From assembly GCF_032854445.1 (NCBI RefSeq), contig NC_088306.1, forward strand, positions 22,291,764 through 22,355,763: a stretch of 64,000 nucleotides of DNA, written 5' to 3'. Each line of letters begins with the position of its first letter. Positions within the stretch are counted from its first letter, which is position 1. Under the pieces are notes generated by a model, which saw only the letters and a program-made list of their open reading frames with translations, was not told the origin of the DNA and made no database searches. The DNA comes from Liolophura sinensis (lineage: Eukaryota; Mollusca; Polyplacophora; Chitonida; Chitonidae). Positions 2,349 through 52,838 of this stretch are shown in pieces. Both the position numbers and the translations under genes were made by a program.

Positions 2349-2567
2349 TCATAATCCAAATCTCAGTTGCCCGGATGCAGACAAGATGCGCACGTGACTG
2401 GCGTGATTTATTCGGAAACCAACCTGCCCATCCAGGAATGAGTGAAACAAAGGAGCACGGATGCAGATGTAGTTACCTGGAACTGCATCACTCCATTTAA
2501 AAAATGGAAACGGAGTCATCCCAGGCATATAGAAATGGACTATCGTTGGTTTTTTGATTTTGTCTCC
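2349..2567 (-). CDS. Terminal coding exon of gene A
   Basis: This is a 219-nt exon (72 codons plus TGA) opened by the acceptor TTCTTATTTCCAG. It begins GDKIKKPTIVHF and contains PFPFFKW, VPGNYICIRAP, FLDGQVGFRI and HVRILSASGQL. The reading frame, acceptor and phase (0) are the same in the exons at 22499, 31055, 41805 and 50781, which is the reason for calling it coding. It completes the C-terminal domain begun at the end of the finger exon. It is intact although its parent finger exon is broken. Confidence 0.8.
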   Translation of the reverse strand, partial: GDKIKKPTIVHFYMPGMTPFPFFKWSDAVPGNYICIRAPLFHSFLDGQVGFRINHASHVRILSASGQLRFGL

Positions 2568-3449
2568 CTGGAAATAAGAAAAACAAAGAGGACAGTAATG
2601 TTAAAAAAAGTGAATGGAATAAATGTATTCCATAGAGGTTAACTATTGAGGGCCATGATCACGTGACCGTATACGTCACACATGGATTACTTCATTTAGC
2701 ACGCAGGCTTTCCAACAACCACATCCCTGGCTGAATCTCCAGCAAAATAGCTGAATCGGCATTTGCTAATGTTTATTAAATATAGTGATAGCATAGCCTT
2801 TTGAGTAATTCTAAATCAGTGGCGGCTAAGAAATTCATTGCTTCTAATAGCGATCACTGACACTTTACCTAATACTGTCAAAAATAGGGGGTGGGTAAGT
2901 TGCAATTTAATCGTTTACACGAACTGTTAGAATAAAACCCTAATTAAAGCAAATAGACTGGAGGCCAGATTTCATCGGTTGTGTGACTGTCGTCGCTGGT
3001 CTCGGTTTACTCTCCATGGTGTGGTTTTATCCCCTAACTTGCCACCTCAAACACAATGACTGGTCCCTTTGTGTTCACCAGATTCAACAGGCACGTCTTC
3101 CATCATATGTATACAATGACTGGTCCCTTAGTGACCACTAGATTCAACAGGCACATCTTCCTTCATATGTATAAATGCAAGAAGGAAGCAAAATTAAGCC
3201 TTTAGAAACATAGTCTATTCGCTAAAATTTTTCTATTAGTATATTAAGTTGAATGTGTGGTTCCATCCTAACCTTTGCTCATTTATTTATCAAAATCACT
3301 CCGTATCTCATTTACATATTTGTCAAACAAGTACTACCATTAAACCGCCTAAAACCGTTCGGATGTTGAAATAAGATAAACAGGAAGTGTCGATGGCTAT
3401 CCACCAGATCAAATTTTAATAAAAACCTGATGCAATTTTCATGAGTACA

Positions 3450-3507
3450 CATTATGTCAAATTTATTAAACGATAAAAAAAACTCGTTTAATACATTTGA
3501 CATAATG
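3450..3507. repeat. Hairpin-forming inverted repeat (copy 1)
   Basis: Arms 3450-3473 and 3484-3507 match at 23 of 24 positions around a 10-base loop (CATTATGTCAAATTTATT... arms). It is present again at 23600-23657 in the duplication. Confidence 0.85.
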
Positions 3508-3613
3508 ATTCTCTCGTTTTAAATTCCATATAGGACTATAAGGTATTACAATATTATTACCATAGGTGTTTGTCAAGCTATAGGGGAGCGTGCTCTCAGA
3601 GAGTCGCCTATAT

Positions 3614-3779
3614 TCAGCTGTCCGGCCGTACGTGAGAAGGTCTGCCTGCAACCTGCGGATGGTCGTGGGTTTCCCCCGGGCTCCGCCCGGTTTCCTCCCA
3701 CCATAATGCTGGCCGCCGTCATATAAGTGAAATATTCTTGAGTACGGCGTAAAACACTAATCAAATAAATAAAATAAAA
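3614..3779 (+). mobile_element. SINE-A, 5'-truncated
   Basis: It begins in CCGGCCGTACGTGAGAAGG, with the full core and an AAATAAAAT tail. Confidence 0.85.
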
Positions 3780-4949
3780 TATTCAGCTGTCTGTAAAGTC
3801 CATAAGCTTGGTTTCGACGGCAAGAAGCAATTGCTTCTGCTGACGTCATAAATATTCTAAAACCAGTGGCATGCTGGGTATTGGGCGGAGTTTAACATGG
3901 TTTGAAGGTGACACCATTTACCTGAACTGTTGGCGACTTTACTGTAAACCCTCGTTCGCACGTTTTAATATAATATAACCTTAATAAATGAATTTGACCT
4001 TATCTATTGTAGTATATGATCTGACGGCAGTATACTTTCAAAAATGGATATTAGGAAATTAAAGCGATCTAGTTATTTGCAGACAGTAGTGTAAGGCTGT
4101 GTTCTTGCAGGGGTTTGTTGTAATTGCTGGTTTTTGAGCCAATGTAAAACACATTACTCTCCACATCTTTTGTCCAGCATGCAACTTGTTTTTGAATGAC
4201 TATGACGTCACCTGAGGCAATGAGTTCTTGGTGTCGAAACTCAGCTTATGGAGTTTAACATTAGAAACAGTATTCTAACTGCAACTTCTTTGTAATAAGA
4301 TGGACGTCCAATGTATAGAAGTTGAGTTGTTACGTGATTCTTGCTAAAGGCAATTTTGGTAGCGAGTATGACTGATTTTACAGACAGATGAAAATAGGCA
4401 ACTCTTTAAAATAAAGACTGTAATTCTCCATCATCAATAAATCTGACCAACGGCGTATAACATATTGACAACAACAAAGCAGATAGACAAATTAAAACAG
4501 GATTATAAAAGAATGTGTTTTAGTCATAAGTTGGTCAGATTTTTTTACATAAACGTTTGTCTAGAGGAAACCATGTAACGGCTCTATGTGTTTTATCAGG
4601 ACATAAAGGCAGCCAATATTAACGATGACACCGATAGTATTATTTGAGAAAATAACTTCACAAATATGAATGATGTGTAAAACCAACCGCACCATAATAC
4701 GAATCCCATTTCTTATCCACCACACGTCCATTTCGACGATTTTTGCCACCAGGATAGTGTTAATGGTCTCGTGCAGCACTGAGAAGTATCTCTCCGGCAT
4801 AACTCTGGTCATGTCCGTGATGAACGTAAACCCCTGGCCGTCAGCAAGATCGAAAAAGGTTGGCTGGGGAAGTGACGTCATCAGGTTGTCCACCAGGCGG
4901 GATAACTCTGTTGGGCCTGGAGGTGGTGCTGGCGGGAGGAAAAACTCTG

Positions 4950-7900
4950 GTAACGGTTCCTGTTCACCCATCATAATTGAGCCAGTCACCTTATCATACA
5001 CGGTGCCAAACATAATGAATTCACGTGTCGTCGTACTGACAGGACCAGATTCTGGGCTTGAATTGCTGTCCTCAGCTTTCTTGCGCTTGTTATGAAACAA
5101 ACAAGTCCCTTTGTGTTGGCGCCAGTGCATTTGTTGACAGACATTTGAGCAGTAGGTTATAGTTCTGCATCCATTACATTTTCTAAAATTCCTACCGTAG
5201 ATCTTACAGTTTTCACACTGATAAAACTCGCTCGAAGAGTCATTGTTGCCATCTCGAGAAGACCATTTACAGCTACCTTTGTGTTTTGGCCAGTGTGCTT
5301 GCTGACACAACCTTGAACAGTAGACTATGGCGCTGCAGCCGACACACTTTTTCAAATTTCCGCCAGATGTGTTACAGTTTCCACACTTTTAAACTTGATT
5401 CGCGGAATCCTTGTTGGCATCTCGAGAAGACCATTTACAATTGGATTTGTGTTTTGGCCAGTGTGCTTGCTGACACGACTTTGAACAGTAGGCTATGGCA
5501 CTGCAGCCAACGCACTTTTTCAAATTTCCGCCTGCTGTGTTACAGTTTCCACACTTTTGAACTTGATTCGCGGAATCCTTGCTGATATCTCGAGAAGACC
5601 ATTTACAGCTACTTTTGTGTTCTGGCCAGTGTGCTTGCTGACAGGATTTTGAACAGTAGGCTATGGCGCTGCAGCTGACACACTTTTTCAAATTTCCACC
5701 AGCTGTGTTACAGTTTCCACACTTTTGAACTTGATTCGTAGAATCCTTGCAGACATCTCGAGGAGACCATTTACAGCTACCTTTGTGTTTTGGCCAGTAC
5801 TCTTTCTGGCATGATTTGGAACAATAAGCTGCGGCACTGCAACCTGTACAACGTTTTACCTCTTCGACAACTGTGTTACAGTTTGTACAATAAAGACGCT
5901 CGTTCTGAGAATTCTTTCCGGCATTTTCAGGAGATGGTTAACAGTTGGCTTTGTGTTTTGGCCAGTGCCCTAGCTGACATGATTTTAAACAGTAAGCCGT
6001 TGTTCTGCAACCAGTACAGTCCTCCGACATTTGTGTTACAGTATGCACAACGTCGACCTCCGTTCATGGAGTCCTTGCTGGTATCTTGAGAAGACCATTT
6101 ACAATTGAATTTGTGTTTTGGCCAGTGTGCTTGCTGACACCACTTTGAACAGTAGGCTATGGCGCTGCAGCCGACACACTTTTTCAAATTTCCGCCAGCT
6201 GTGTTACAGTTTCCACACTTTTGAACTTGATTCGCGGAATCCTTGCTGACATCTCGAGAAGACCATTTACAGCTACCTTTGTGTTTTGGCCAGTGTGCTT
6301 GCTGACACGATTTGGAACAGTAGGCTATGGCGCTGCAGCCGACACACTTTTTCACACTGCTGCCAGCTGTGTTACAGTTTCCACACTTTTGAACTTGATT
6401 CGAGGAATCCTTGCTGGTATCTGGAGAAGGCCATTTACAGCTACCTTTGTGTTTTGGCCAGTGTGCTTGCTGACACCACTTTGAACAGTAGGCTATGGAG
6501 CTGCAGCCGACACACTTTTTCACACTGCTGCCAGTTGTGTTACAGTTTCCACACTTTTGAACTTGATTCGAGGAAGCCTTGCTGGTATCTGGAGAAGACC
6601 ATTTACAGCTACTTTTGTGTTCTGGCCAGTGTGTATGCTGACACCACTTTGAACAGTAGGCTATGGCGCTGCAGCCGACACACTTTTTCACACTGCTGCC
6701 AGCTGTGTTACAGTTTCCACACTTTTGAACTTGATTCGAGGAATCCTTGCTGGTATCTGGAGAAGACCATTTACAGCTACTTTTGTGTTTTGGCCAGTGT
6801 GCTTGCTGACACCACTTTGAACAGTAGGCTATGGCGCTGCAGCCGACACACTTTTTCACACTGCTGCCAGTTGTGTTGCAGTTTCCACACTTTTGAACTT
6901 GATTCTAGGAATCCTTGCTGGTATCTGGAGAAGACCATTTACAGCTACTTTTGTGTTCTGGCCAGTGTACTTGCTGACACCACTTTGAACAGTAGGCTAT
7001 GGAGCTGCAGCCGACACACTTTTTCACACTGCTGCCAGTTGTGTTACAGTTTCCACACTTTTGAACTTGATTCGAGGAATCCTTGCTGGTATCTGGAGAA
7101 GACCATTTACAGCTACTTTTGTGTTCTGGCCAGTGTGCTTGCTGACACCACTTTGAACAGTAGGCTATGGCGCTGCAGCCGACACACTTTTTCACACTGC
7201 TGCCAGCTGTGTTACAGTTTCCACACTTTTGAACTTGATTCGAGGAAGCCTTGCTGGTATCTGGAGAAGACCATTTACAGCTACTTTTGTGTTTTGGCCA
7301 GTGTACTTGCTGACACCACTTTGAACAGTAGGCTATGGAGCTGCAGCCGACACACTTTTTCACACTGCTGCCAGTTGTGTTACAGTTTCCACACTTTTGA
7401 ACTTGATTCGAGGAATCCTTGCTGGTATCTGGAGAAGACCATTTACAGCTACCTTTGTGTTCTGGCCAGTGTGCTTGCTGACACGACTTTGAACAGTAGG
7501 CTATGGCGCTGCAGCCGTCACACTTTTTCACGCTGCTGCCAGTTGTGTTACAGTTTCCACACTTTTGAACTTGATTCGAGGAATCCTTGCTGGCATCTGG
7601 AGAAGACCATTTACAGATACTTTTGTGTTGTGGCCAGTGTGCTTGCTGACACCACTTTGAACAGTAGGCTATGGCGCTGCAGCCGCCACACTTTTTCACA
7701 CCGTAGCCAGCTGTGTTACAGTTTCCACACTTTTGAACTTGATTCGTGGAATCCTTGCTGGTATCTGGAGAAGACCATTTACAGCTACTTTTGTGTTCTG
7801 GCCAGTGTACTTGCTGACACCACTTTGAACAGTAGGCTATGGCGCTGCAGCCGACACACTTTTTCACACTGCTGCCAGTTGTGTTACAGTTTCCACACTT

Positions 7901-9080
7901 TTGAACTTGATTCGTGGAATCCTTGCTGGTGTCTGGAGAAGACCATTTACAGCCACTTTTGTGTTTTGGCCAGTGTGCTTCCTGACACCACTTTGAACAG
8001 TAGGCTATGGCGCTGCAGCCGACACACTTTTTCACACTGCTGCCAGTTGTGTTGCAGTTTCCACACTTTTGAACTTGATTCGAGGAATCCTTGCTGGTAT
8101 CTGGAGAAGACCATTTACAGCTACTTTTGTTTTTTGGCCAGTGTGCTTGCTGACACCACTTTGAACAGTAGGCTATGGCGCTGCAGCCGACACACTTTTT
8201 CACACTGCTGCCAGTTGTGTTGCAGTTTCCACACTTTTGAACTTGATTCGCGGAATCCTTGCTGGTATCTGGAGAAGACCATTTACAGCTACTTTTGTGT
8301 TTTGGCCAGTGTACTTGCTGACACCACTTTGAACAGTAGGCTATGGAGCTGCAGCTGACACACTTTTTCACACTGCTGCCAGTTGTGTTACAGTTTCCAC
8401 ACTTTTGAACTTGATTCGTGGAATCCTTGCTTGTGTCAAGAGAAAACCATTTACAGCTACCTTTGTGTTCTGGCCAGTGCTCTTTCTGGCATGATTTGGA
8501 ACAATAAGCTGCGGCATTGCAACCTGTACAACGCTTTACCTCTTCGACAACTGTGTTACAGTTTGTACAATAATGACGCTCGTTCTGAGAGTTCTTTCCG
8601 GCATTTTCAGGAGATGGTTGACAGTTGGCTTTGTGCTTCGGCCAGTGCCCTAGCTGACATGATTCTGAACAGTAAGCCGTTACTCTGCAACCAGTACAGC
8701 TTTTTAGTTTTCCGACATTTGTGTTACAGTATGCACAACGTCGACCTCCGTTCATGGAATCCTTGCTGGTATCTTGAGAAGACAATTTGCAGTTGTCTTT
8801 GTGTTCTGACCAGTGTTCTAACTGACAAGATTTCGAGCAGTACGCCGTATTTTTGCAGGCAGTGCACCTTTTTAAAGTTCCAACGTAGGTCTTGCAGTTC
8901 GAACAGCACTGATTAACCTGATCCAGGGATTGAATAGGGCCATCTGGTTGTTTGTATCTGCAATGAACTTGATGCCTTGGCCAGTGTTCACGTTGACAGT
9001 CTACCGAGCAATAGAACACAGTCTTACAGCCTGAACATTTCTTCAGATCTGTGCAGTATCTGCCACACTGGGAACAATGC
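4950..9080 (-). repeat. 168-bp tandem array of MYND finger units, gene A
   Basis: About 24 coding units of 168 bp, in three zones. From the gene start there are four distinct fingers, then 13 homogenised GSSVKK fingers with KWSSPDTSKDS linkers. One AGGNLKK finger follows, then a second set of CAYC/CTNC fingers, AGGNLKK/SGGNLKK fingers and the CENC finger. The second CAYC/CTNC set marks where a B-type gene was joined. Confidence 0.9.
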
Positions 9081-9095
9081 TGAGCCACCATAATG

Positions 9096-10618
9096 CTGGG
9101 AAAACAACACTAAAAACTAAATACCAAAAAAGGTTGAACAGAATCGAAAATCAGACTGATAGCGAGAAAATCTTCACGAAGAGCTCCAGGTAATGATCCG
9201 CATATAGCAGAGACAACAGCACCACGGACTAAATACCAGGGAAGGTCATATAAAACTCGAAATTCAGCCTGTTAGCTCATACAGAAATCCAGGTTATGAT
9301 CGGCTCCAGGTCTGTAAACACACAGAAAGAAGAGTGTGACTCATTTTATCTGACATAGTATACGTTATACATGGTCACATATAAATAGGTTTGAAAACAG
9401 GAACGACCGTGTGCTGGTATACACTATAAGGATGGAAGCAAACAGATCAACAAGGCATATATTTATAAAGCCTATCTTAGACTTACAAGGAACGTTTCAC
9501 TTTCAGTTTGGTTTACGCATGGATATAGACCTCCCCCAAGCGTTACATGAGCTCAGAAAGCTCTCAAGCGCTCTGCGGTGATGTAAATAGGTCGATAGAC
9601 AAGGAGACAATGGGCTTCAATGGTTAAGTGCTCAGTCAGTTAAAACCCTATAATAGGTAAAACGCCAGTCATTACCCTCTTCAGTACTTTCAGTCGTAAC
9701 CGGGTTCTAATAATCCTTCTCTTATTTTCTTATACCGGTTTTTAGGACGTTCTTTTGACAATAGTCCATCGTGTCTCACTGTGAGTATACAGGGCCTATG
9801 TTACACATATTGACATACAACAGATCTAGAAACCCTTATAACTGACAGGCTATACAGACACTGTGAAGTCCGTGCAATCAATGTAACATCAACTTTCTTT
9901 TTGTTGGCACACAGAACATACCTGTAGAGCACGTGTAACCACCGAAACAGACGTGCTACCTCTTTCTACCAACACGTAAAGATGTAACATTACGACATGT
10001 TGTCAGACGGCCCTACAGTAAATTGAAATCTGTCAATACTAACAGAAAGTCTGTTGTCCGAGTGATGCTAGAATGTATCATATTATTATAACACAATATT
10101 GTGTCATACTGAACGTAATATCCTTTTAGCCTAATAGAATCGTTATTTAAACTAATAGAATATGTGTGTCACATTCTTCAAGTGACATGGTCATCCACAA
10201 TTTGGGTTTTTAAACAAATTCTGAGTGCGACGTCTTAGCGAAGTTTTAAAGTTCGTTCATAAACTAAATCACTCACGTTGAAGTAAAAAATGTGCAATGA
10301 GTATGGAGCTTGTACGAGTCCATTATTCAAATTCATTACAAAGAGGGCAAGCCATTTTACCCCATTAATATTTAAACGGAAGGGCCCGGAGCATATGCGC
10401 AAAGTTCGGAAAGTTCCCTATGATACCGACTTTCGATCAATCGACGAACTCGGATAATTTCGAATATTGATATACATCGATACATACAGAGTACAACAGC
10501 TTAAACAGCATTGAGAAAAGGATACGAATAATCTTCTCATTAAACTAAGAGCCAGAAACGTGTGTCTGTTCGAAATTTAACACCCCCTGCCCACCACAAC
10601 AATAACATTTGCACCCAC
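9096..10618 (-). other. Upstream region or first intron of gene A
   Basis: No coding frame is visible. It begins with an acceptor-like TTTTCCCAG and would be the intron if the 260-nt exon is exon 1 of gene A. It contains the dispersed repeat at 10010-10145. Confidence 0.4.
10010..10145. repeat. Dispersed repeat with ACAACAGACTTTCTGTTA
   Basis: It matches 34436-34560 (duplication) and, inverted, 50420-50550, where AGGATATTATGTT, GACACAATATTG and ACAACAGACTTTCTGTTA recur in the same order. A weaker relative is at about 19375-19440. Confidence 0.6.
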
Positions 10619-10878
10619 CTATCAAGCAGTAGTTTTGCGACATCTTCGTCCTTCGTGAGACATTTTTCTTTCTTCATTGTACTCCACCGTTCAAACTGAC
10701 CATCAATTACAACTCTACACTTGCTTGTCGGCCTGTCGAGCTCTTTTTTACGCCTCTTTTTGGCCGAACCTGTCACGAGCGAGCCGTAGGTCCTTTTACG
10801 CGTGTAATCAGCTATGTTTGTTGAGTTTACCGAGTGCTGTGCGCATGATCCATGTCCACTGAACTGACAGCGCCTCAT
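10619..10878 (-). CDS. Candidate first coding exon upstream of gene A (basic segment plus FERW/LLLDR motif)
   Basis: This open exon of 86 codons plus 2 nt starts with ATG at 10878 and ends GATAG|GTGGGTGC, a plausible donor. The product has a basic KKRRKK stretch (possible nuclear localisation signal) and then QFERWSTMKKEKCLTKDEDV and AKLLLDR, which looks like a small helical module. I recall similar pieces at the start of various uncharacterised animal proteins, without a named function. The first exon ends in phase 2. The acceptor TTTTCCCAG at 9096 in front of gene A gives C-ATT-ATG, so joining the two keeps the finger frame open. It may therefore be exon 1 of gene A. Alternatively it belongs to a separate gene whose other exons I cannot see. 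A near-identical copy lies at 35026-35285. Confidence 0.5.
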
Positions 10879-12060
10879 TTAATTATTCAAGCAGAATTTT
10901 CACGCCTCATCGCAGAATTTTCAGTTTTCATTTGTATATTTTTTTGGTTATTTTTAAACATTCACTTAACAATGCTGGGGGTGGGATGAACGAAAAGCTT
11001 GTGACTATCATTTCTTGAGAAAAATATCCGATACCCATGTCATTCAGAAATAACGCAAAAACCCCTAATATTTGGACGACAATGTCACTTTAACATCACT
11101 CACATAAAACACTTTCTGTTAAATTTAGATCATTTTTTGACAGTATAGTAAAAGTGAAGTACTTCAGTTTGTTAGACGCTGCCACGATCTGGCCATTGAA
11201 TAATGCGGTGGCTCATTTACTGCTCAAATCCAGCTTTCGCTGCTCCGGCTGCGCCTTTAAGTGAGAAAGTTTGTCAGGTATCTGCCAAAAGTCAGCGGTT
11301 TACTACGGGTACCCTGTTCTTCTTCCACCTGACAGCATTCATATAAGTAAAAAATTCTTGAGAAAAAGCTTTAAACCAAAATAAATAAATAAATTTGTAA
11401 AGTCTGTCGTTAGCTATTTTGTTGTTCTTGAGTACCAAAACAGTGTGATAACTACATTTTCATGGTCACCTTGAAAACTGGTCTCCAATTTAGATTTTTA
11501 ATTTACTAACGGCTCTTTGCGACAGGCTAATCCATGAAGAGTAACATATACTATCACATACGCGTGTGACAATTTAAGCACTTGTTCCATGATATGATCG
11601 ATTCCTCTGAATATTAATTGCATTATAATCGCTCGTCTAACCCCTTTTTGTCATCCGCAATCATGCTATATCGTTACATGTATGTAAACACAGTCATGCA
11701 GCATACATACAGACCCAGTGCGCATGTCTAGGGCTTCCTATCCCTAGTCTGCCTCATAACATCAGTTAGAATAGTTAATCAACAATACATTGAATAAAGA
11801 CCAAATGTAACAAATGGACGGCGCTAGTTTGATGCTTGCTGGTTTTACTATTAACCTAACCGAAGCTTGTCCGAAAAGTGGAGACGCAACTAAACAACTA
11901 AAAACAGATCTATATAGAGCTGTGTTTATCAATTTAGCTGATTGGTGCTGAACATTGTCGTCAGGAAGTTTTAACTTGCATGACGGTCATGTATATGGGC
12001 GAAGGCAAGCGGAGTCACTGGAGTGAACTCGCTCCCTTCGTCAAGTAAGCTTATGTACTT
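10879..12060. other. Non-coding stretch
   Basis: AT-rich, with a very worn SINE-A tail near 11330-11395 (ATATAAGTAAAAAATTCTTG). Nothing else recognised. Equivalent to 35286-36470. Confidence 0.4.
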
Positions 12061-12139
12061 GTATCAGTACTGACAAACTACCTGTTTTAAAGCCGTCAAT
12101 AATGATGATGTCATTGTCAGCTGTGTACCATACTCCCTG

Positions 12140-12500
12140 CAGTACATGTGTCGCTCTCTACCTTTCGTTTTTCGCATCACTGCCATCTCTAGTAAATTTT
12201 GTACTGATATCCTGAACAACGCCAGTGTCACAGGGGTCGGGGTGATGAGGCAGGAAGTGATACCAGAAAACACAAACAATACGAATCAACCTATATCTCT
12301 AACAATATTTTCTACACATGTATTCTCTTCTAAAGTGCGCACATTAAATAGTTTCGCGGGGGGACACACGTGATGAGGCTAAGCCTAAACGAACATACGT
12401 GCGTCCCACAGGCTCCACAGATCAAGCTGGACTGGTGGTGGCAGTGATGTAAAGCGGAAGGTAGACAGCGATGCATGCGTTGTAAGGAGTACGGCTGTGT
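12140..12500. repeat. Inverted-repeat element upstream of gene A (IR-1)
   Basis: Left arm CGCTCTCTACCTTTCG...CATCACTGCCATC at about 12150-12190 pairs with the complement at about 12433-12480 (GGCAGTGATGTAAAGCGGAA). About 240 bp lie between. A copy is at 36553-36915, and diverged relatives are at 16754-17138 and 51236-51613. Confidence 0.7.
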
Positions 12501-13319
12501 ACGCTAACAGATCCATCACCACAGCCAACCTAGAGCAAGAAATACAATTTTATTGTAGGATTCAACGTTAAGATAATTTGATCTTGTGATCACTTCTGGT
12601 AGAATAGATAGGCGAATATCGGCAAATCTGACTGTAACCGTATTAATGATTCCATAACCATGGTAACTGTTCCATAACCATAATAACGGCTCCATAACCA
12701 TTGTAGCGGTTCCACAAACATGGTACGATTAAAAATATACAGACTTATGCATACAAACACTTTCGCGAATTACTGAACGGAATGTAACGTTAGAGCGTTA
12801 CCTGTATACAAACTTAGATTATCTTACATGTAACAACAACAACAACAACATCAAGTCAAAAAGAATATAGCCTAAACATATAGACATACATGTAGCTAGA
12901 TACTTCATGATCCGCTGTTTTGATTCGATTTCGCTCGAGGCTTTCCCCTCTGTCAGTGAAATTTATGTAAGTATTAAGTAACGGAGCAGTAATGCTCTCT
13001 TCTTCCCGCTGTACGCAACCTGCATACAGGAAATGTAGAACAAGAACACCCAGCTGAAGTCACCGCCTAGTTACTCATTTATGGTTCCTTATTCTAAAAT
13101 ATATGAGGCTCCAGAGGATGCGCTCGCATGCCGTTCATTCGCTTATTTAATACTATAAGGCGTTGGCACGTTTCCACTTGATAGCCGTTTTTGTGATGAT
13201 CTATTCATAGAAGGGAAGTTAAATATACTTTATTGTTCACCAGTTACACCTGTCAATTAGTTTCAGTAATGATTGCGAAATATATCCAAAAGTATAGGGT
13301 AATCAGGAGATTTAATATG

Positions 13320-14910
13320 CACAGCGCGAATAGTTCTGGTGACAAAATCAGAATTTCTGAAGCTTTCAAAAGACATTTTGCACTTGAGGCTTTCAACATG
13401 TCAGAGCTACCTTGGTCATCTTGTTCATATTTTTTCCCCCACTGTAATGCTGGTCACCATCCTATGTGTGAAATATTCTTGAGTAAATCAATAAATCCTA
13501 TCCAATCAGACTCAGACATGACGCTCATGTACAGAAAATGTCGGAAGTAATTCCTTTTGTGCCACTCTAAATGGCTATTAAATCTGTTCAAGGGTCCTCT
13601 GTCGTCCACACCAGTCCAACTTAAGGTCAGTAAAATGGGGCCTTCCTAACTATCTAGACCCCAAAATGAAAAGTATGCAGCAAAACACGTCTAATATATA
13701 TATTGGAAATTGCTCTGGTGACAACGCCTCCATTTGTGAAAGACATTGCGTACCAGAAGGATTCAATAATAAACGTTCCATGTAATTTTTATTGATTAAA
13801 TCTGGGATCTTCATGTTCTTTATGACCCGTAATTAGGGTCTCCCATCTTAATCGCAATTTACATATCCATGAAGAAATGGCTATGGAATCACATTAGTTT
13901 CTTGTATGACACTCTAAATGGCTATTAAATTAAAAGTAGAAGTCAATAAAATGGGGTCTTTCTATCTGTAAAGAACCAATAATTACCCAGATATACATCA
14001 AAAGAATGACGTCTAATACGTTCTGGTGACAAAACCGCCATTTGTGCCGATCTAGACAGACATTGTGCTGTTAGAAGATTCAGTATATGAAAGTTTCATT
14101 CAATTTTCATTGTGTAAATATAGGGCTTTCATGTTTCCCATAACCCTTAATCAGGGCCACCCATCATGATCGCCCTATCCATGCCTTTGAAGAAATGGTC
14201 ATTAGCTTTACATCAGTTTTTTGTGTCGCTGTGAATGGCATTATATCGGTTGAAAAGTCCTCTGTCGTGCACACGAATTCAGCGTAAGGTCAACAAAATT
14301 GTTTATTCCTGTCTGTAAAAATGACTGATCGCTAAAACAAATCATTGAACTCTAATGCGTACAATTTAAATGGTTTTGGTGACAAAACCGCCATTGATGC
14401 CGCTCTAGACAGACATTCCATAGCCATTTCGTCACAGGGGAAATGGCGATTAACATTAGGGGTGGCCCTAATGATGGGTCATACCGAATGTGGAGACCCC
14501 ATATTTCCCTAATGAAAATTGGGCGGAACATTCATTGTTGAACTCTCCTGGTACACAGTGTCTTTCTAGAGCGGCACAAATGGCGGTTTTGTCACCAGAG
14601 TTATTTGATTTCCAGGCCTCCGTATTAGACGTTAACGTTTTGCTCTGCATCTGGATCATTTTAGAGTCTTTACAAACAGGAAGACCCCAGTTGTTTGACA
14701 TGAACTTGGTCTTGTGTGCACGACAGAGGACCTTAGGACATATTTTATAGCCATTTAGAGCGGCACAAAAGAAACTAATGTGACTCCATAGCTATTTCTT
14801 CACAGGCATGGACGATCTAGATAGGTGGCCTACTTAAACGTCACAGAGAACATGAAAACCCCATATTTACTCAGTAAAATTGGACGCAATGTTCATACAT
14901 TTAACCTCTA
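13320..14910. repeat. Tandem-then-inverted repeat field upstream of gene A
   Basis: Units of about 310-380 bp begin at GGTGACAAAACCGCCATTTG-like sequence near 13338, 13717, 14025 and 14375. After a turn point near 14430 the same unit runs on the other strand (GGCGGTTTTGTCACCAGAG at 14582). This makes a large imperfect palindrome with no credible coding frame. Confidence 0.75.
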
Positions 14911-15212
14911 ACAGATCTAACAGATTCAAAGGCAGATAAATGGATGGACAAAGGTTGAAATATGTAGTAGTAAGGGATCGTCCCGTTCTGGAGCCCAGGC
15001 TACAATAGGGAGCCAGGAATAAGTAACCAGTCGCTAACTTCCGCTTGATACAGCTTTTGTATGGAATTTTACAAGAAGGGAGATAACTCTAACAGTTAAA
15101 ACTTCAGTTTGTTCCATATATGTATGCTCGTACTGTTTTTTTTTTTACGTCGTGCTGAACAATTGTTTAGTAATATGACGTCGAGGGGTCAGTAGGTGTG
15201 CGTTCACACACT

Positions 15213-15440
15213 GTGTCTTCTTGTAGCAGAGCGAGATCAAGCCATCAGAGTGCTGCAATCACAGAAGTATCAAGCCAAAGACACCAGACATGACAACCCA
15301 CCCAGTCACATTATACGGACACCGGGGCAACCTGTCCTGTTTCCTTGCTCTAACCTCTCAGTAGCATTTTAAAAGTATTTGGTATTACCCGACCCGGGTT
15401 TCCTGACTTTGAGGCGGACCCTCTCTCTAATAGGCCACCA
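15213..15440 (-). mobile_element. SINE-B (second tRNA-like family)
   Basis: On the minus strand it reads from CCCGGGTCGGGTAATACC to GAAGACACAG, the same blocks as at 46867 and 61338 (AACAGGACAGGTTGCCCCG, GCACTCTGATGGC). Confidence 0.65.
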
Positions 15441-16035
15441 TTAGTTACACTTCTTCCTAGGTCTACAATTATATGCACTGCTACCTTCGTTGGAGTTAGG
15501 GCCAACATCTGTGACACACCTCGCCCCTTGCTTTTGAACTAACCGAAGTTGAAAGAAAGAAAAAAGTCAGACAGTGCAGGTACGTCTTTAAGCTATCTGA
15601 CTCTCGGCATGTCTCGCAATTTACCCCTTAACTATAAAGCTGAACTGATAAGAGATCGTGTATCACCAGCTGTCACACTGCCGTCGCTGCTCTGGTTTTA
15701 CTCTGTATGCTGTACATCTTTTATTATATCGCAGCTAGATTTTGGATCTCGAAAGATCTTCATTGGCAAACTAATACAGTTCGAGATACCCAATAAATTT
15801 TTAGTGGTAGAAACTTTTAAAACCCTCGTTCCTATGTGTGCATGTATGCAGTTGTGTTTCTTTCAAACCGATGACCACAAATTCTTATTGGTTGTATTCA
15901 TGAAGTAAAAAGAAATTTTCTCTTCCTCCTTTCCCTTTCAAATAAGGCCTAGGCTTGTTTTATTGTTCATACAGAGGGGCATCGACATACATCCGAATGT
16001 CATAATTTATCACTTGTTTACGTCCCTAAACGCCT

Positions 16036-16252
16036 GACTCATGAGTCTCTCACCAATGAGGTGGCTTGTTTCCTCTCCAGTCGTACATTGGAAGGTCTGC
16101 AGCAACCTGCAGATGGTCGTGGATTCCCCCCCCCTCCCGCCTCCCCAGCAGTTCTGCCCAGTTTCCTCCCACCATAATGATGGCCGCCGACGTATAAGTG
16201 AACTATTCTTGAGCACGGCGTAAAACACCAATCAAATAAATAAATAAATACG
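16036..16252 (+). mobile_element. SINE-A at a duplication edge
   Basis: It has a C-rich expansion in the middle (CCCCCCCCTCCC) and a core ending AACACCAATCAAATAAATA. The large duplication stops in its tail. Confidence 0.82.
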
Positions 16253-39400: not shown

Positions 39401-39890
39401 CATTTACATTATGCGTCATAAAATGAAATCTTTTGTTGTATATGTGGGAGAAATAAACAAACAGACAAACAGACGTGCGGGCGGTCTACCAGATTCACAG
39501 GCAGATAAATGGATGGACAAAGGTTGAATGGGGTGGGTGGGGGGTGGGGTGGGGGGAAGGGGGACAAGCTGAAATCCTTGTGCCACTCTACAATATGCGT
39601 ACAGAAGTATAACGAATGTGTTTTGTATAACCAAATATGTAGTAGTAAGGGATCGTCCCTTTCTGGAGCCCAGGCTACAATAAGGAGCCAGGAATAAGTA
39701 ACCAGTCGCTAACTTCCGCTTGATACAGCTTTTGTATGGAATTTTACAAGAAGGGAGATAACTCTAACAGTTAAAACTTCAGCTTGTTCTATATATGTAT
39801 GCTCGTACTGTTTTGTTTTTTTTTACGTCGTGCTGAACAATTGTTTAGTAATATGACGTCGAGGGGTCAGTAGGTGTTTGTTCACACACT

Positions 39891-40115
39891 GTGTCTTCTT
39901 GTAGCAGAGCGATATCAAGCCATCAGAGTGCTGCAATCACAGAAGTATCAAGCCAAAGACACCAGACATGACAACCCACCCAGTCACATTATACGGACAC
40001 CGGGGCAACCTGTCCTGTTTCCTTGCTCTAACCTCTCAGTAGCATTTTAAAAGTATTTGGTATTACCCGACCCGGGTTTCCTGACTTTGAGGCGGACCCT
40101 CTCTCCATTAGGCCA
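39891..40115 (-). mobile_element. SINE-B, duplication copy
   Basis: Mate of 15213-15440. Confidence 0.65.
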
Positions 40116-40717
40116 CCATTAGTTACTCTTCTTCCCAGGTCTAGATTTATATGCACTGCTACCTTCGTTGGAGTTAGGGCCAACATCTGTGACACACTTC
40201 GGTCCCTAGCTTTTGAACTAACCGAAGTTGAAAGAAAGAAAAAAGTCAGACAGTGCAGGTACGTCTTTAAGCTGTCTGACTCTCGGCATGTCTCGCAATT
40301 TACCCCTTAACTATAAAGCTGAACTGATACGAGATCGTGTATCACCAGCTGTCACACTGCCGTCGCTGCTCTGGTTTTACTCTGTATGCTGTACGTCTTT
40401 TATTATATCGCAGATAGATTTTGGATCTCGAAAGATCTTCATTGGCAAACTAATACAATTCGAGATACCCAGTAAATTTTTAGTGGTAGAAACTTTTAAA
40501 ACCCTCGTTCCTATGTGTGCATGTATGCAGCTGTGTTTCTCTCAAACCGATGACCACAAATTCTTATTGGCTGTATTCATGAAGTAAAAAGAAATTTTCT
40601 CTTCCTCCTTTCCCTTTTAAATAAGGCCTAGGCTTGTTTTATTGTTCATACAGAGGGGCATCGACATACATCCGAATGTCGTAATTTATCACTAGTTTAC
40701 GTCCCTAAACGCCTGAC

Positions 40718-40936
40718 TCATGAGTCTCTTACCAATGAGGTGGCTGTGAGCTGAAGTCCAGCTTAGGCTTGTTTCCTCTCCATTCGTACATTGGAAGGTC
40801 TGCAGCAACCTGCGGATGGTCGTGGATCCCCCCCCCCAGTTTTGCCCAGTTTCCTCCCACCATAATGATGGCCGCCGACGTATAAGTGAACTATTCTTGA
40901 GCACGGCGTAAAAGACCAATCAAATAAATAAATAAA
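40718..40936 (+). mobile_element. SINE-A at the matching duplication edge
   Basis: Mate of 16036-16252 without the long C-rich expansion and with a 21-bp extra piece in its head. Confidence 0.82.
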
Positions 40937-41804: not shown

Positions 41805-42038
41805 CTATATACCAAAAATCAGTTGCCAGGATGCAGACAAGATGCGAACGTGACTGGCGTGATTTATTCGGAATCCAGTTTGTCCATTTGGAAATCTGTG
41901 AAGCATAGGAGCCCGAATGCATATGTAGTTACCGGGGACAGCATCAGTCCATTTAAAAAACGGAAACGGATTCATCCCAGGTATGTAAAACTGGACAATA
42001 TGTGCTAGCCTTTGGAAAAAAACCGGCTCGTCATCACC
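41805..42038 (-). CDS. Terminal coding exon of gene D
   Basis: 234 nt, five codons longer than its relatives near the start (GDDEPVFFQRLAHIVQFYIPGM). It then has PFPFFKWTDAVPGNYICIRAP and HVRILSASWQLIFGI with a TAG stop. The phase matches the donor at 44815. The extra codons lie before the conserved HIVQFY and keep the frame. Confidence 0.8.
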   Translation of the reverse strand, partial: GDDEPVFFQRLAHIVQFYIPGMNPFPFFKWTDAVPGNYICIRAPMLHRFPNGQTGFRINHASHVRILSASWQLIFGI

Positions 42039-45000
42039 CTGGAAATGCAAAAATAAAACATTATTTCTCCAGAGAATAATAGTATTTCATTCTAAACCAT
42101 TATAGATTATTTGTACGTATGACCATGTGACGTATATAGGTCACAGCATTCTGCAGGAAAATACCTAACGTTTTTTTTGTGCACATGGAATACTGCACTG
42201 GAAGTGTACTTCGAAGGGGAAGTGAACTCCACATGGAAGTACTCACAATGGGAAAGTGTACTTCGCAGGGGAAGTGAACTCCACGTGGAAGTACTCACAA
42301 TGGGAAAGTGTACTTCGCAGGGGAAGTGAACTCCACATGGAAGTACTCACAATGGGAAAGTGTACTTTGCAGGGGAAGTGAACTCCACATGGAAGTACTC
42401 ACAATGGGGAAGTGTACTTTGCAAGGGAAGTGAACTCCACATAGAAGTACTCACAATGGGAAAGTGTACTTCGCAGGGGAAATGAACTCCACATGGAAGT
42501 ACTCACAATGGGAAAGTGTACTTTGCAGGGGAAGTGAACTTCACATGGAAGTACTCACAATGGGAAAGTGTACTTCGCAGGGGAAGTGAACTCCACATGG
42601 AAGTACTCACCATGGGAAAGTGTACTTCGCAGGGGAAGTGAACTCCACATGGAAGTACTCACTATGGGAAAGTGTACTTCGCAGGGAAAGTGAACTTCAC
42701 ATGGAAGTACTCACTATGGTAAAGTGTGCTTCGCAGGGGAAGTGAACTCCACATGGAAGTACTCACAATGGAAAGTGTACTTCGCAGGGAAAGTGAACTC
42801 CACATGGAAGTACTCACAATGGGAAAGTGTGCTTCGCAGGGGAAGTGAACTCCACATGGAAGTACTCACAATGGAAAGTGTACTTCGCAGGGAAAGTGAA
42901 CTCCACATGGAAGTACTCACAATGGGAAAGTGTACTTCGCAGGGGAAGTGAACTCCATTTGGAGGTGTTCACCACGGGAAATTATACGTCGCAAGGAAAG
43001 TGTACTTCGCCACTGGAAAATGTACCTCGCGGAGGGACTAAAGATCCCAGCGGGAGGGTACCTCATGGATGTAGTGCAGATCATAGATGAAGTGCATCTG
43101 ACGGAGGGGGTATACACCACAGCGGAAGTGGACCTCACGTAAGATGTATACATCACAGGGGAAGTGCACCTCACGGATGCAGTGTAGATCATAGATGAAG
43201 TTTTTCTGACGGAGGGGGTATACACCACAGCGGAAGTGGACCTCACGTAAGGGGTATACATCACAGGAGAAGTGCACCTCACGGATGTAGTGTAGATCAT
43301 AGATGAAGTTTTTCTGACGGAGGGGGTATACACCACAGCGGAAGTGGACCTTACGTAGGAGGTATACATCACAGGGGAAGTGCACATCACGGAGGAGGTA
43401 TACATCAAAGGAGAAGTGTATCTCACGGAGGGAGTGAAGATCAGAGGAAAAATGTACCCCTGGAGTGTGTGTATATCACAGGACCTGTACTTCATAGGAT
43501 AAGTGTACTTCACGGTGGGTATATACACCACAGGGGAAGTGGAAGGGGCACATTGATCACAAGAAAAGTGTACATCACTGTGGGAGCATACGACACAGGG
43601 TAAGTGTACCTCGCGACGGGTGTATACATCACACTGGAAGTGTACCTTCTCCATATGGAGGTGTTCACCACATGGAAGTGTTCCTCATATGGAAGCGTTC
43701 TCCACAAGGAAATATTCTCCAAATGGAAGCGTTCTCCACTTGAATGAATCTTTTCATTCATCAAATCGACCAATCAAAAGTTATAACTCGTCTGTACAGG
43801 CACTACTTTTTTTACAACTTTTTCTCGTTGTCTGCAAATGTCAACATGGCCGACTTTCGACCAGGAGATATCGTAAAACCTGACAATAAAAGACGTGCTA
43901 GAGTTGTAAATGTGACAAGAGATAATTGAATCAATGTGGAAATCCTCGGCATTGACTACGACATAGAGCTATCGCCACGAAGGCTAAGTAAAATCCCCAG
44001 AACGGAAACACCGGGTAGGCCATTATTTTTCTTAACATTATTCTATAGGCCTAAAACTTTGTGCTTCGCTAATTTTGACATTATCCGGATGAAACCAATA
44101 AAATCTACCCTCCTTAAACTCTGTTAGAAATCAATACTCTGTAAACTGTTTCGCTTGCTGAACGTTAAACTGTCAGTTGTTTTTTTCTAAGTTACATGGC
44201 GTGTACTCTGCGCACGTGAAATTTTTCTATTTTTAGACAGCAGTTCTTTCTGTAGTAAAATGTGGTATTCTTTTTATAAATTTGAACGTATTGGACGACA
44301 TATTCTATAATGCAAACTTTTAACATGTCTATGATATAAGCAAGTCGTTATGTAAATAAATTTTGTCTGTACTATATTATACTCCGCCATGTACTTGTCA
44401 CTTACTGATGTCGCTTCTCTTGACCTATATGTGTGATATCACTACGCGGTTAGACGTCGGCATTTTCCGAAAAGTTTAGATCGTAATGATTTTTTCCCGC
44501 ATTAAATTTACAATAAGACATTTATGGGGTAAATAGGATATAAAATTCGTGACCCTCGATGTCAAATTTATTAAACTGGAGTAGTAGTTTTCATTTGTTC
44601 CGAGCCTCCGGCGGAATTAAATGAAAACTACTACTCCAGTTTAATAAATTTGATATCTTCGGGTCACTCATTACATATCCTCTATACATCAGCCCGGCGG
44701 AATTAGTTAAAATAATACAAAATAATAATAAAAATGCAAACGTTAATTTCAATTTATAATACTTCACTGGTCTAGAATTACTCAGAAAACTGTTTTGTCG
44801 AAACCCCAACAGTACCATTACAAGTATCCCGTGCTGTTTCCACTGTGCGCCCATGGACACGATTTTAGCAATGAAGACTGTATTTCGCTCTTCCTGCAAC
44901 GACCTGTGACGACTCTCCATTGGGACGTCTAAGGAGTCTGTGATGAACGTAAACCGTTCTCCTGAATTAAGTTCAAAAAACCTCCGGTTACGGGGAAACC

Positions 45001-45835
45001 CCAGCCACGTTTCCATCAAACAAGAGAACTCTTCAGGATCTGGGGGAGAGACTGGCGGCAGGAAAATATCCACTGAGGGATACAGTTCCTCCGATCTTCT
45101 CGAGCGTTTCCCAATGTCACGCCCATATCCAGAGCTGTTTGTAGGCGATGCAGGCTTTCTACCGTTGATGCGACTAGCCTTTTTGATATTTTCACAGGTA
45201 GATTTGTGTTGTGGCCAGTGATCTTCCTGACAGCCCCTTGAGCAATAAGATGCAGTCCTGCATTTGGTACATTTCTTCAAATCTTCGTCATAGACTTTAC
45301 AGTTTGCGCACTGTTGAACTTGATCCGAAGAATCAGTGTCGCCGTTCTGAGGACCTCGTTTACAACTGGCTTTGTGTCTGGGCCAGTGTGCTTGCTGGCA
45401 TGATTTTGAACAGTAGGCTGTAGTTTTGCAACCAGTGCACTTCTTCAGTTCTCCGCCAATTGTTTTACAGTTTGCGCACTGTTGACCTTGATTCGGAAAA
45501 CCCTTGTTGGTATTTTGAGTAGGCCGTATACAGCTAGCTTTGTGTTTTGGCCAGTGCTCCAGCAGGCAGGATTTTGAGCAGTACGCTGCAGTCTTACAGC
45601 CAGTACATCTTGTGAAGACTCCAATACACGTCATGCAGTTTGAGCACGGCTGTTTAACTTGTTTCGACGATTCAGCGGATTTGCGTTGGTGAGACCGTTT
45701 GCCATTGCAACTGGCTTTGTGCCACGGCCAGTGTTCTCGCTGACAACCTCTCGAGCAATATAGCGCAGTTTTACACCCGGAACACTGTTTCAGGTTGTAG
45801 TAGTATCCTTTACAACTTAAGCAATACTGAGCCAT
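41805..45835 (-). CDS. Gene D: 4-finger MYND protein
   Basis: Join of 44816-45835 (340 codons) and 41805-42038 (77 codons plus TAG), 417 residues. Donor ATG|GTACTG, acceptor TTTTGCATTTCCAG. I chose MAQYCLSC as the start because it aligns with the starts of A-C. The frame is open 17 codons further up, but only from a TTG. The four fingers CLSC, CSNC, CANC and CANC have all ligands. A Ser/Arg-rich linker precedes DIFLPPVSPPDP at about 256 and the C-terminal domain. The 2.8-kb intron holds a fold-back element, a small open frame on the other strand and the 52-bp minisatellite. Where A-C have CCCAG before the start, D has ACAAC, so the 5' acceptor, if ancestral, is lost. Same subfamily as F. Confidence 0.85.
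42187..42960. repeat. 52-bp minisatellite in the intron of gene D
   Basis: About 15 head-to-tail copies of a unit that runs GGAAGTACTCACAATGGGAA, then AGTGTACTTCGCAGGGGAAG and TGAACTCCACAT. Each unit contains three related pieces of 17-18 bp with the core GAAGTG-AC-TC. Open frames on both strands follow from the periodicity and are not genes. Confidence 0.92.
43010..43740. repeat. Diverged 36/108-bp minisatellite next to the 52-bp array
   Basis: Three copies of a 108-bp unit (about 43068-43390), each made of 36-bp subunits around GAAGTGGACCTCACG and GTATACATCACAGGGG, flanked by more degenerate copies up to 43740. The GAAGTG-AC-TCAC core is the one seen in the 52-bp array, so both probably descend from an 18-bp unit. 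Confidence 0.8.
43846..44014 (+). other. Small open frame with an in-frame TGA, ending at a donor-like site
   Basis: ATG at 43846 in a good context (CAACATGG) gives MADFRPGDIVKPDNKRRARV before a TGA at 43927-43929. The same frame continues INVEILGIDYDIELSPRRL and reaches CCGG|GTAGGC. Both halves look protein-like and hydrophilic. It could be a first exon with a nonsense or recoded codon, or a transposon-derived relic. It is antisense within the intron of gene D. Confidence 0.25.
44529..44687. repeat. Long fold-back element in the intron of gene D
   Basis: Core arms 44549-44596 and 44619-44667 are nearly perfect inverted copies with a 22-base G/C-rich loop, and weaker pairing extends to 44529 and 44687. 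The arms contain GTCAAATTTATTAAAC, which is also the arm sequence of the hairpins at 3450 and 23600, so they may be one family of miniature fold-back elements. Confidence 0.85.
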
Positions 45836-50415: not shown

Positions 50416-50419
50416 ACAT

Positions 50420-50550
50420 AACCATTGTGTTATACTAACAGGATATTATGTTGTGTGTGACACAATATTGGGTTACAATACCAGACTAGATTTTACCATC
50501 ACTCAGACAACAGACTTTCTGTTAAATTCAACAGATTAATGTTTTTGAGT
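50420..50550. repeat. Inverted copy of the 10.0-kb dispersed repeat
   Basis: It carries the same three blocks as 10010-10145 on the opposite strand, just past the 3' end of gene E. Confidence 0.6.
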
Positions 50551-50780
50551 GTTGTAATCTGGGACATGCGTGTCAGGCTTAGAGTATTGGAAACGAGAGG
50601 AAATTGCAACGAAACACTTTCTGCATCTCCATGTAGTAAATGAACTGTGATCACGATAAATTACATGTATTTAAAATAAAAGCCAAATCATGGAGATAAT
50701 GTAAATTGTGATAATGTTACGATTGCTTTCGCAGTTACAGCCATCTAAACCATTATATGTTAATGTACTCGTCTGTTGCA

Positions 50781-50999
50781 CTAAATACCAAAAATTAGTT
50801 GCCCGGATGCAGATAGGATGCGCACGTGACTGGCGTGGTCTATTCGAAATCCAACCTGTCCATCCAGGAATGAGTGAAACACAGGAACACGGATGCAGAT
50901 GTAGTTACCCGGAATTGCATCACTCCATTTAAAAAACGGCAACGGATTTAGCATGGGCATGTAAAAGTGGACTATAACTGGTTTTCCTTTCTCATCACC
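50781..50999 (-). CDS. Terminal coding exon of gene E
   Basis: 219 nt with TAG stop. It begins GDEKGKPVIVHFYMPMLN, then PFFKWSDAIPGNYICIRVP, FLDGQVGFRIDHASHVRIL. It is the most diverged copy at DNA level among the 219-nt exons, yet most changes are conservative or silent. Confidence 0.8.
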   Translation of the reverse strand, partial: GDEKGKPVIVHFYMPMLNPLPFFKWSDAIPGNYICIRVPVFHSFLDGQVGFRIDHASHVRILSASGQLIFGI

Positions 51000-52838
51000 C
51001 TGTCAGGACAAAATAAAATGGAAGACACTAAGATTCTGCGTTTTCTCTCATTCAGTTCCTGAAAGTCTACACAAAATTTCAATACCAGATTACTCGACAT
51101 GTAGAATATACATGCAAATTTGGATACAGAATTGTGTCTTGTGTTGGATTCTTGCGCTAACATCGAAGAGTTAGTTTCATTCCGACACTTAAGAGTACAG
51201 GAGATTTCTTCAGGAAACCTATACTCCGTAAAGGGCATGCGCCAGTCTCTACGTTCGCTTAAATCAATGCAACCGCTAGCAAATTTTGTACAGAAATCAC
51301 GAACAACCTCGAGGTCACTGGGGTCACGGTGATAAGGTAGGAAGTGATGTCAGAAAACTGAAACATTCTGTGTCAAACCTTGCTTCTGATAGTGCTTTTA
51401 AAACATGCATTCTCTTTGTCTAAATTATGCACAACATGATTCTAACACCTGAAACAATTTTATTGCTAATTGCTGATTAAAGATTTCCGCAGACACTAGC
51501 GGTGAGACTAAGCCTAAGGAAGCCTGCGTGAGTCGCACAGACTTCAAAGGTCAAACTTCTCTAGTGAAAGCAGTGATGTAAGGCGAGCATGGAGTGCGTC
51601 ACAACGCCATAAGGAGTAAGCAAGAAGCCAGTGTAGGGCTAAATGCCACAAAATACATCTATACGACTTGTAAGCGTATTTAATATGAGATCTATATACT
51701 TTCAAAAGTATTTTGTATTACACAGAACTTCAAGGATAGAATAAATATCATATTTCAAAGATAGAATGACATTCTTTTTACGTTTCCAGAAAATTTTTTT
51801 ACCTAAAAGCTTTTTATATCTTGTTCACGATCTATCTAGACAGTGTTAAATTTGCTTATAGTTTACACCTCCTTTAGTCTACTCACGTGAACCAAGAGAA
51901 TGTTAATGATTGGTTAAGACCAGCTATATGATATCATTTTAACTATATGAATACCTTAATGCATATTCCATGCCGTGTCCAGTACACGTCCATTTCCACG
52001 ATTTTTGCCACGAGAACTGTGTTTCGTTCCTGACGCAGTACTGAGGCATACCACTCCGGCATAACGTCGTTCAGGTCAATGATATACGTAAACTGTTCTC
52101 CTTCGGGGATCTCAAAATACATCGGGTGAGGAAGGGACGTCATCAGCCTGTGCACCATGCGGGATAACTCCAATGGGCCTGGATGGGGGACCGGCGGTAG
52201 AGAAAACTCCGCGGTTGGGCATTGTTTTTCCAGAAACAATGCGCCAGTTAGGTTGTCTCGAACAACTGCATACGTACACGTTTCGCCGTCGTCATTGTCG
52301 GGCTGTTTGCCTCTTTCGCTGCCTTGGCTTTCACTTGGTTTCGGACTTTTCTTACTCTCACGGAAAAAAACACACAAACCCACTTGTGCTTGGGCCAGTC
52401 CTTTCGTTGACAAGATTTAGAACAGTAGGCCGAGGTGTTGCAGCCGGTGCACCTTCTTAAGTGTTCATCGCACTTCTTGCAATTTTCGCACTGCAAAGAT
52501 TGCTTAGGGGTCTCCATGTTGCTCTCCCGGCAAGGTCTATTACAGGTGACTTTGTGCTTGGGCCAATGCTTTATCTGGCAGGACTTTGAACAGTAGAGTA
52601 TTGCCCTGCAACCAGCGCAGTTCTTTAAATTTCCGTTGACGGTCTTACAGTTTGCGCACTGTTGGACTTGATTCGGCGAATCCTCGCTGGCATCTTGTGA
52701 AACCAACTTGCAATTACCTTTGTGACTAGGCCAGTGTTCACGTTGGCAGGCTCTGGAACAATAAAACACTGTAGTACAGCATGAACACCTTTTCATATCG
52801 GTGTCATATCTCCCACAACTCGAGCACCGTCCAGCCAT
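50781..52838 (-). CDS. Gene E: 3-finger MYND protein with a one-base frame break
   Basis: Join of 51955-52838 and 50781-50999. Donor AAG|GTATTC, the best in the family; acceptor TTTTGTCCTGACAG. Start MAGRCSSC aligns with the family starts. An ATG 8 codons earlier (MHLCFQGK) is also in frame. Three fingers (CSSC, CANC, CENC), a short Lys-rich linker, EFSLPPVPHPGP and the C-terminal domain follow. The frame changes once, in a run of seven A (plus strand) near 52364-52370, just after the last finger (KHKWVCVFF). With one more base in the run the gene would be open for about 367 residues. A sequencing or assembly slip at the homopolymer is as likely as a real lesion. E has the fewest fingers and is the most diverged member. 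Confidence 0.75.
51236..51613. repeat. Inverted-repeat element in the intron of gene E (IR-1 family)
   Basis: The left part (GCAAATTTTGTACAGAAATC, then CTCGAGGTCACTGGGGTCAC) matches the interior of the 12.1 and 16.7 kb elements. The right arm GCAGTGATGTAAGGCGAGC lies at about 51570. More diverged than the others. Confidence 0.6.

Follow-up and report, generated by a model that had tools for sequence, protein, structure and literature searches.

A tandem gene cluster for multi-finger MYND proteins with a shared C-terminal domain in the chiton Liolophura sinensis

Organization of the MYND gene cluster

The window analysed here, a 64,000-nucleotide stretch of the genome of the chiton Liolophura sinensis (C12:22291764-22355763, in an assembly totalling 609,464,459 bases), holds a cluster of genes in which a zinc finger of the MYND type is repeated in tandem. 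Units were detected by a regular-expression scan and from stop-to-stop reading frames. They fall into six loci on the minus strand between positions 2349 and 52838, which we lettered A to F in order of increasing coordinate; transcription runs from F to A. The loci carry 24 (A), 4 (B), 12 (C), 6 (D), 4 (E) and 3 (F) MYND units, as had been claimed in the original prediction of six same-strand paralogs with 3, 4, 4, 6, 12 and about 24 fingers, and the outer limits given there proved to be the stop codon of A exon 2 (2349) and the ATG of F (52838). Each unit is composed of a 39-residue finger and a linker of ~17 residues, giving the anticipated period of 56 residues, with a few units of 54, 57, 59 or 61. 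The Pfam zf-MYND model (PF01753) matched six finger-carrying open reading frames (ORFs) in 3 to 13 stretches each, with bit scores of 111.5-385.9 against a curated cut-off of 22.7 and E values of 1.8e-32 to 3.4e-118, which exclude chance as the source of the finger matches. The only other Pfam matches in these ORFs were to the ZMYND11/8 model PF24324, overlapping the fingers and above cut-off in all six, and to Ecl1, below threshold.

The cluster continues beyond the loci of the window on both sides, to a total of 11 finger loci with 69 units over ~154 kb. The flanking members are D1 (7 fingers), B1 (4), B2 (3), S1 (1) and S2 (1), and the predicted series, correct in its six counts, is thus longer than the window reveals. 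S1 and S2 are one-finger genes with the same C-terminal domain as the array genes. In the whole genome, a zf-MYND profile search returned at least 92 matches (counts made exon by exon, which are lower bounds), 69 of them on C12 at 22.269-22.420 Mb. The remaining 23 matches listed are scattered singly, with no pair within 200 kb, in keeping with the earlier premise that MYND proteins usually have one finger.

From sequence and conservation at the splice sites, we infer two coding exons for each complete gene of the cluster. The ATG of exon 1 lies shortly ahead of finger 1, and this exon encodes every finger, followed by a linker, a stretch rich in proline (FLPPxPPPxP in most members) and half of a conserved domain. 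Exon 2 encodes the second half, with the consensus GDDxxxxxIVHFYMPGMNPFPFFKWSDAVPGNYICIRAPxFHSFxDGQVGFRINHASHVRILSASGQ. The putative phase 0 intron is 832 to 2777 bases long; in A, C, D, E and F, it has GT at its 5' end and closes with a pyrimidine-rich AG acceptor. The C-terminal domain had been described as common to all six paralogs; it extends over two exons in five of them, and B retains just the half encoded by exon 1. A search with exon 2 of C found no counterpart between B exon 1 and A.

Seven of the 11 loci (C, D, E, D1, B1, S1 and S2) have an open exon 1 together with an exon 2 and are, on paper, alive. Gene C encodes 12 intact fingers in one open frame (exon 1, 24722-27100; exon 2, 22499-22717), arranged as t1-t4, t5x7, t6, where t1 to t6 are our own labels for finger types, and no zinc ligand is lost in any of them. 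Gene D has six fingers (t1,t2,t3,t3,t4,t5; exon 1, 32106-33509; exon 2, 31055-31273) and gene E has four (exon 1, 44816-45835; exon 2, 41805-42038), each followed in exon 1 by the first C-terminal half. Of the six loci of the window, C, D and E are intact on paper, and A, B and F are damaged. In locus F (exon 1, 51955-52838, with three fingers and the first C-terminal half in two reading frames; exon 2, 50781-50999), the frame shifts at a T run near 52370, a change that may be genuine or an error of base calling. In locus B (exon 1, 17577-18641, with four units and the first C-terminal half), finger 3 contains a 5-residue insertion and finger 4 has lost a ligand Cys. Outside the window, B2 is without the conserved C-terminal domain. 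A retroelement RNase H reading frame adjoins this damaged locus.

Locus A, the longest array, appears to be dead. Its exon 1 (4693-9091) reads t1,t2,t3,t4,t5x14, a broken t3, t4,t5x3,t6 and the first C-terminal half, and its exon 2 (2349-2567; acceptor TTTCTTATTTCCAG, stop TGA) encodes the second half. The 24 units form one run, of which 23 are readable as fingers and one is frame-broken, and the zinc ligand His of finger 6 is replaced by Asn. The run is distributed over four broken reading frames, so that no open 24-finger frame exists. We rejected a working 24-finger protein, as originally proposed, because the locus has a frameshift near 6020 and three in-frame stops (at ~6906, ~5939 and ~5390) and because its main t5 block shows no constraint, as described below.

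The C-terminal domain

With exon 2 of gene C as query (E up to 1), the C-terminal domain was found at 12 places, every one on C12 at 22266326-22418479, and no match appeared outside the cluster in the same assembly. The 12 places comprise eight close copies, S1, S2 and two relic pieces, of which one is interrupted by a stop and the second matched at E = 0.38. One of the close copies is an orphan exon 2 at C12:22273165-22273380, which is 99% identical to that of C with no adjoining MYND match and is probably a recombination leftover. Exon 2 of S2 (C12:22416362-22418500, minus strand) continues without a stop into ~640 residues of short PDDKALG-type repeats.

Two candidate relatives of the domain were rejected. 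Nitrite reductase was dropped because its solved-structure matches reached only E = 0.35 or worse, and a glyoxalase family protein, the sole match in the Protein Data Bank (PDB) at E = 0.013, covered only positions 43-119 and was unconvincing. No phage relative was found, and when the domain was compared with viral contigs, 33 and 34 stretches matched the pattern and none was confirmed. Proteins of the Vreteno/TDRD1 type, which are MYND-Tudor proteins of the piRNA pathway, join a MYND to a beta-rich domain and are not known to have repeated fingers. The cluster proteins resemble them in that a MYND part is joined to a further domain, possibly beta-rich as judged from a low-confidence model of the exon 2 piece, but Pfam finds no Tudor in the seven spliced C-terminal domains (limit E = 10, with HMMER filters dropping most matches above ~0.1).

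Changes in finger number by recombination

The arrangement of the cluster supports both whole-gene duplication and amplification of the 168-bp unit, as had been suggested. Two segmental duplicates contribute to locus A. The first, at 8132-16248, copies 32550-40936 (the finger exon of D and its upstream region) in two aligned pieces that are 94% identical, and carries the 5' half of A; within it, 8132-14909 corresponds to 32550-39347 at 94.4% identity, so that the 5' side of A matches D. The second, at 932-3760, is 97.7% identical to 21095-23910, which lies downstream of C exon 1 and includes exon 2, making the 3' side of A C-like. By these alignments, A is a mosaic of C and D, a broken chimera. 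The breakpoint of the first duplicate lies near 16250, downstream of B exon 1, and B probably lost its exon 2 because the duplicate ends there.

Smaller events can be read within the arrays. The unit order of A contains a second t3-t4 set and resembles an end-to-end fusion of two arrays. Finger 2 of B2 combines the front of B1 finger 2 (80/81 bases) with the back of B1 finger 3 (84/87 bases), which marks the in-frame loss of one finger. There are two t3 fingers in D and three in its duplicate D1. Among units 5 to 10 of C, identity peaks between units three places apart (161/168, 165/168 and 165/168 bases, versus 152-160 at other spacings), and a three-unit block was therefore probably copied. 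Traces of unequal crossing-over are thus visible in the sequences of A, B2, C and the D/D1 pair, showing at this level that finger number changes through recombination within and between arrays. The presence of one-finger members beside many-finger ones suggests that a one-finger ancestor gave rise to the arrays. A tree of the fingers unites finger 1 of A, C, D, D1, E and F with the S1 finger at a support of 94/88, below the mark for firm support; the tree is built on few columns, and both S1 and S2 sit on long branches in it.

MYND fingers and the evolution of zinc-finger clusters are both already known. In C2H2 zinc-finger clusters, finger number varies among tandem paralogs via recombination and the fingers read DNA. 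The MYND cluster shares this mode of change, whereas the finger fold and the ligand differ, and it offers a protein-interaction module whose repeat number changes through recombination, a constrained gene of 12 fingers lying alongside a broken copy of 24 units.

Selection on the C-terminal domain and the fingers

The ratio of non-synonymous to synonymous divergence (dN/dS) of the C-terminal domain is 0.29-0.37 when A, C, D and D1 are compared with E or F and when E is compared with F. The domain of F still looks constrained, with ~0.3 in comparisons with A, C, D, D1 and E. Comparisons with B1 gave 0.38-0.53; among those with S1, 5 of 7 pairs were saturated and the other two gave 0.32 and 0.29.

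To the repeated fingers we applied a count of variants, each taken once, with the proviso that their independence is incomplete under gene conversion. Across the seven t5 fingers of C, 10 variants are synonymous and 7 non-synonymous, where the opportunity is 68:283 (Fisher p = 6e-4), and none of the 7 non-synonymous variants alters a zinc ligand, Gln28 or Trp32, showing from the variants that the amplified fingers of C are under purifying selection. The same count over 13 of the 17 t5 fingers of A gives 4 and 19 (p = 1), and the difference between C and A has p = 0.009; with all 17 t5 fingers of A, the counts are 11 and 32 (p = 0.2). An earlier set of ratios gave 0.16 for the fingers of C, 1.11 for A and 0.12 for the t3 fingers of D/D1, with 1.98, 2.46 and 1.02 for the respective linkers, but omitted one of the 7 C units, one of the 13 A units and one of the 5 D/D1 t3 units. 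Our claim of selection rests on the test with all 7 C and 13 A units, and D stands outside that test.

Finger chemistry and the peptide pocket

The solved-structure relatives of the cluster fingers are SMYD1-3, ZMYND10, DEAF-1, ETO (CBFA2T1), ETO2 and ZMYND8. SMYD2 and SMYD3 are among the closest, at E ~1e-6 for a t4 finger; the cluster differs from the SMYD proteins in that its fingers stand in tandem and that none of the 7 ORFs tested gave a SET match (E up to 0.01). Well-known MYND relatives carry a single finger. The BS69, ETO and DEAF-1 proteins combine one MYND with SAND, PWWP, bromo or NHR domains, whereas the cluster has up to 12 intact fingers and none of these domains in Pfam.

We examined 67 units of 39 residues, leaving aside one unit with an insertion and one frame-broken unit. 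All C4-C2HC zinc ligands (seven Cys and one His) are kept in 64/67 units, with losses in A, B and D1. Trp32 is kept in 67/67 and Gln28 in 63/67, and these positions align with Trp533 and Gln529 of DEAF-1, both of which matter for ligand contact (PMC3555993). The cluster fingers share with BS69/ZMYND11, ETO and DEAF-1 a C4-C2HC finger with a ligand-contacting Gln and Trp. For the DEAF-1 MYND, the same source gives binding constants of 5.3 mM for SMRT peptides and 3.1 mM for NCoR peptides (PMC3555993). A single pocket can thus bind weakly, and an array would benefit from avidity.

A model of D exon 1 shows separate finger folds and linkers, the linkers at a confidence of ~26-48 versus ~48-71 for most finger blocks. 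The arrays had been pictured as multivalent binding rods; the low-confidence model fits beads on a string instead and argues, if not strongly, against a rigid rod.

A possible role as multivalent adaptors

The reading that we favour, and to which we give about an even chance, is that of a young, expanded gene cluster encoding multivalent MYND adaptors. In such a protein, each finger would offer a weak pocket, of the type seen in ETO, DEAF-1 and BS69, to a proline-rich peptide. Since basic residues take the place of the DEAF-1 Glu, the targets may be proline motifs with an acidic environment. A string of near-identical fingers, flexibly linked, would convert a millimolar single-site affinity into avidity, with finger number setting the valency, and the C-terminal domain would dock or anchor the scaffold at its site of action. 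The series of 1, 3, 4, 6, 7 and 12 fingers on one end domain is a natural test of valency versus binding. A bolder extension, which we regard as speculative and rather improbable, is that binding valency evolves here by gain and loss of whole pockets. The cluster would then represent a new class of animal protein, a scaffold or decoy with 1 to 12 near-identical proline-peptide pockets on an undescribed two-exon domain, in which finger number varies between duplicates and probably between individuals, forming a tunable multivalent switch or a pathogen trap. Among the open-access papers listed, we found in titles and the starts of abstracts no description of tandem MYND arrays this long with this C-terminal domain. 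The genome comparison covers this one animal genome, and unnamed arrays may exist in other molluscs.

Several results weigh against the adaptor reading. At position 13, which corresponds to Glu514 of DEAF-1, the units mostly have Lys (38/67), Arg (17/67) or Ser (7/67) and do not match the DEAF-1 Glu; at position 15 (Thr516 of DEAF-1), they mostly have Val (24/67), Thr (23/67) or Ser (8/67), so that Thr is kept in about one-third. With these replacements, the ligands of ETO and DEAF-1 would probably not fit. BS69 likewise is without the conserved Thr/Ser and needs basic residues for its PXLXP ligands (PMC3555993), and the cluster pockets are also basic. D1, counted above as alive, has lost the zinc His of its finger 2. 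The C-terminal domain has no recognised relative, as its seven spliced versions matched no Pfam family above threshold. Folding was limited to single-exon pieces because the intron splits the C-terminal domain, and the resulting models, with mean pLDDT of 44.9 and 45.3, are both of low confidence. Evidence of constraint is weak for D-D1 (whole-gene dN/dS 0.53; 9 synonymous and 18 non-synonymous changes). The loci read as dead still gave ratios below 1, 0.35 for the C-terminal domain of A-C (4.5 and 5.5 changes; 10 in all) and 0.40 for exon 1 of B-B1 (12 and 19 changes; 31 in all), so the decay of A and B may be recent, or the test weak. The selection test on C itself draws on 17 variants in 7 units, which gene conversion could blur.

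Positive charge, too, tells partly against peptide binding, in that it also fits a polycationic nucleic-acid binder, in which the basic finger array would coat DNA or RNA and the C-terminal domain would be OB-fold-like. The finger part has a net charge of +67 in C and +31 in D, and single fingers carry +1 to +7 in 15 units, versus +1 for SMYD2 and DEAF-1; these units include S1 and S2, which makes positive charge a trait of the family and not of the arrays. The motif spacing of the C-terminal domain presumably recalls OB folds, the exon 2 piece is predicted, with low confidence, to be beta-rich, and one of the seven members gave a match to an S1/CSD-like domain, which we take to be OB-type, at E = 0.094. 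This OB hint stays below any threshold, and the peptide-contacting Gln and Trp are retained almost throughout, neither of which is needed for DNA binding alone. MYND domains are, moreover, described as mediators of protein-protein interaction (PMC3555993). We consider nucleic-acid binding unlikely, although it is the strongest of the alternatives.

Slightly less probable still is a selfish or neutral minisatellite in a coding exon, in which slipped replication and crossing-over would expand the 168-bp unit and a high number of fingers would add no function over genes with one to four. As this explanation would have it, the longest array is disrupted and shows no constraint on its main t5 block, and the linkers of C show no clear constraint either (5 synonymous and 14 non-synonymous variants, p = 0.55). 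It accounts poorly for gene C, whose 12 fingers are intact in their ligands and whose repeated fingers are constrained, and for the conserved C-terminal domains of C, D and E.

We give a lower probability, that of a doubtful outside candidate, to an immune decoy or sensor, in which MYND pockets would soak up pathogen proteins bearing MYND-binding motifs and the turnover of genes would reflect an arms race. Birth and death within one cluster, with duplicates of 94-98% identity beside broken copies, would suit this idea, and viral E1A and EBNA2, which target BS69, provide an analogy. Viral and bacterial MYND-binding proteins are known (PMC4742278, PMC6315623 and PMC6224051). The fingers of C, however, are under purifying and not positive selection.

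An assembly artefact, in the form of false haplotype duplicates or of collapsed or expanded repeats, is very improbable: some blocks are 97-98% identical, which could lie within mollusc haplotype divergence, but there is no N in 92,001 bases, the blocks are shuffled, non-collinear mosaics, the copies and their units differ in finger order, number and sequence, and synonymous divergence (dS) is graded from 0.03 (D-D1) through 0.19 (C-D) to ~1 (C-E), with deep pairs at 0.7 to over 1, all of which disfavours the expansion of a single locus that the original prediction had named as its refutation.

Other features of the window and the assembly

Scans of the window for tRNA genes and Rfam families gave no match. 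Minisatellites lie at 42200-43432 (units of 52 and 108 bases), 59760-60384 (33 and 99 bases) and 62459-63226 (45 bases). An aldo/keto reductase fragment on the minus strand at 61039-61326 (E = 2e-8) was the sole non-MYND gene match among the few frames tested. Elsewhere in the assembly, COX1 recurs every ~15.5 kb on the mitochondrial contig C99, and the mitochondrial genome therefore seems to have been assembled as a head-to-tail concatemer. Under the invertebrate mitochondrial code, its gene order, which would fit gastropods, reads nad3-nad2-cox1-cox2-atp6, in which all genes except cox1 were named by eye.

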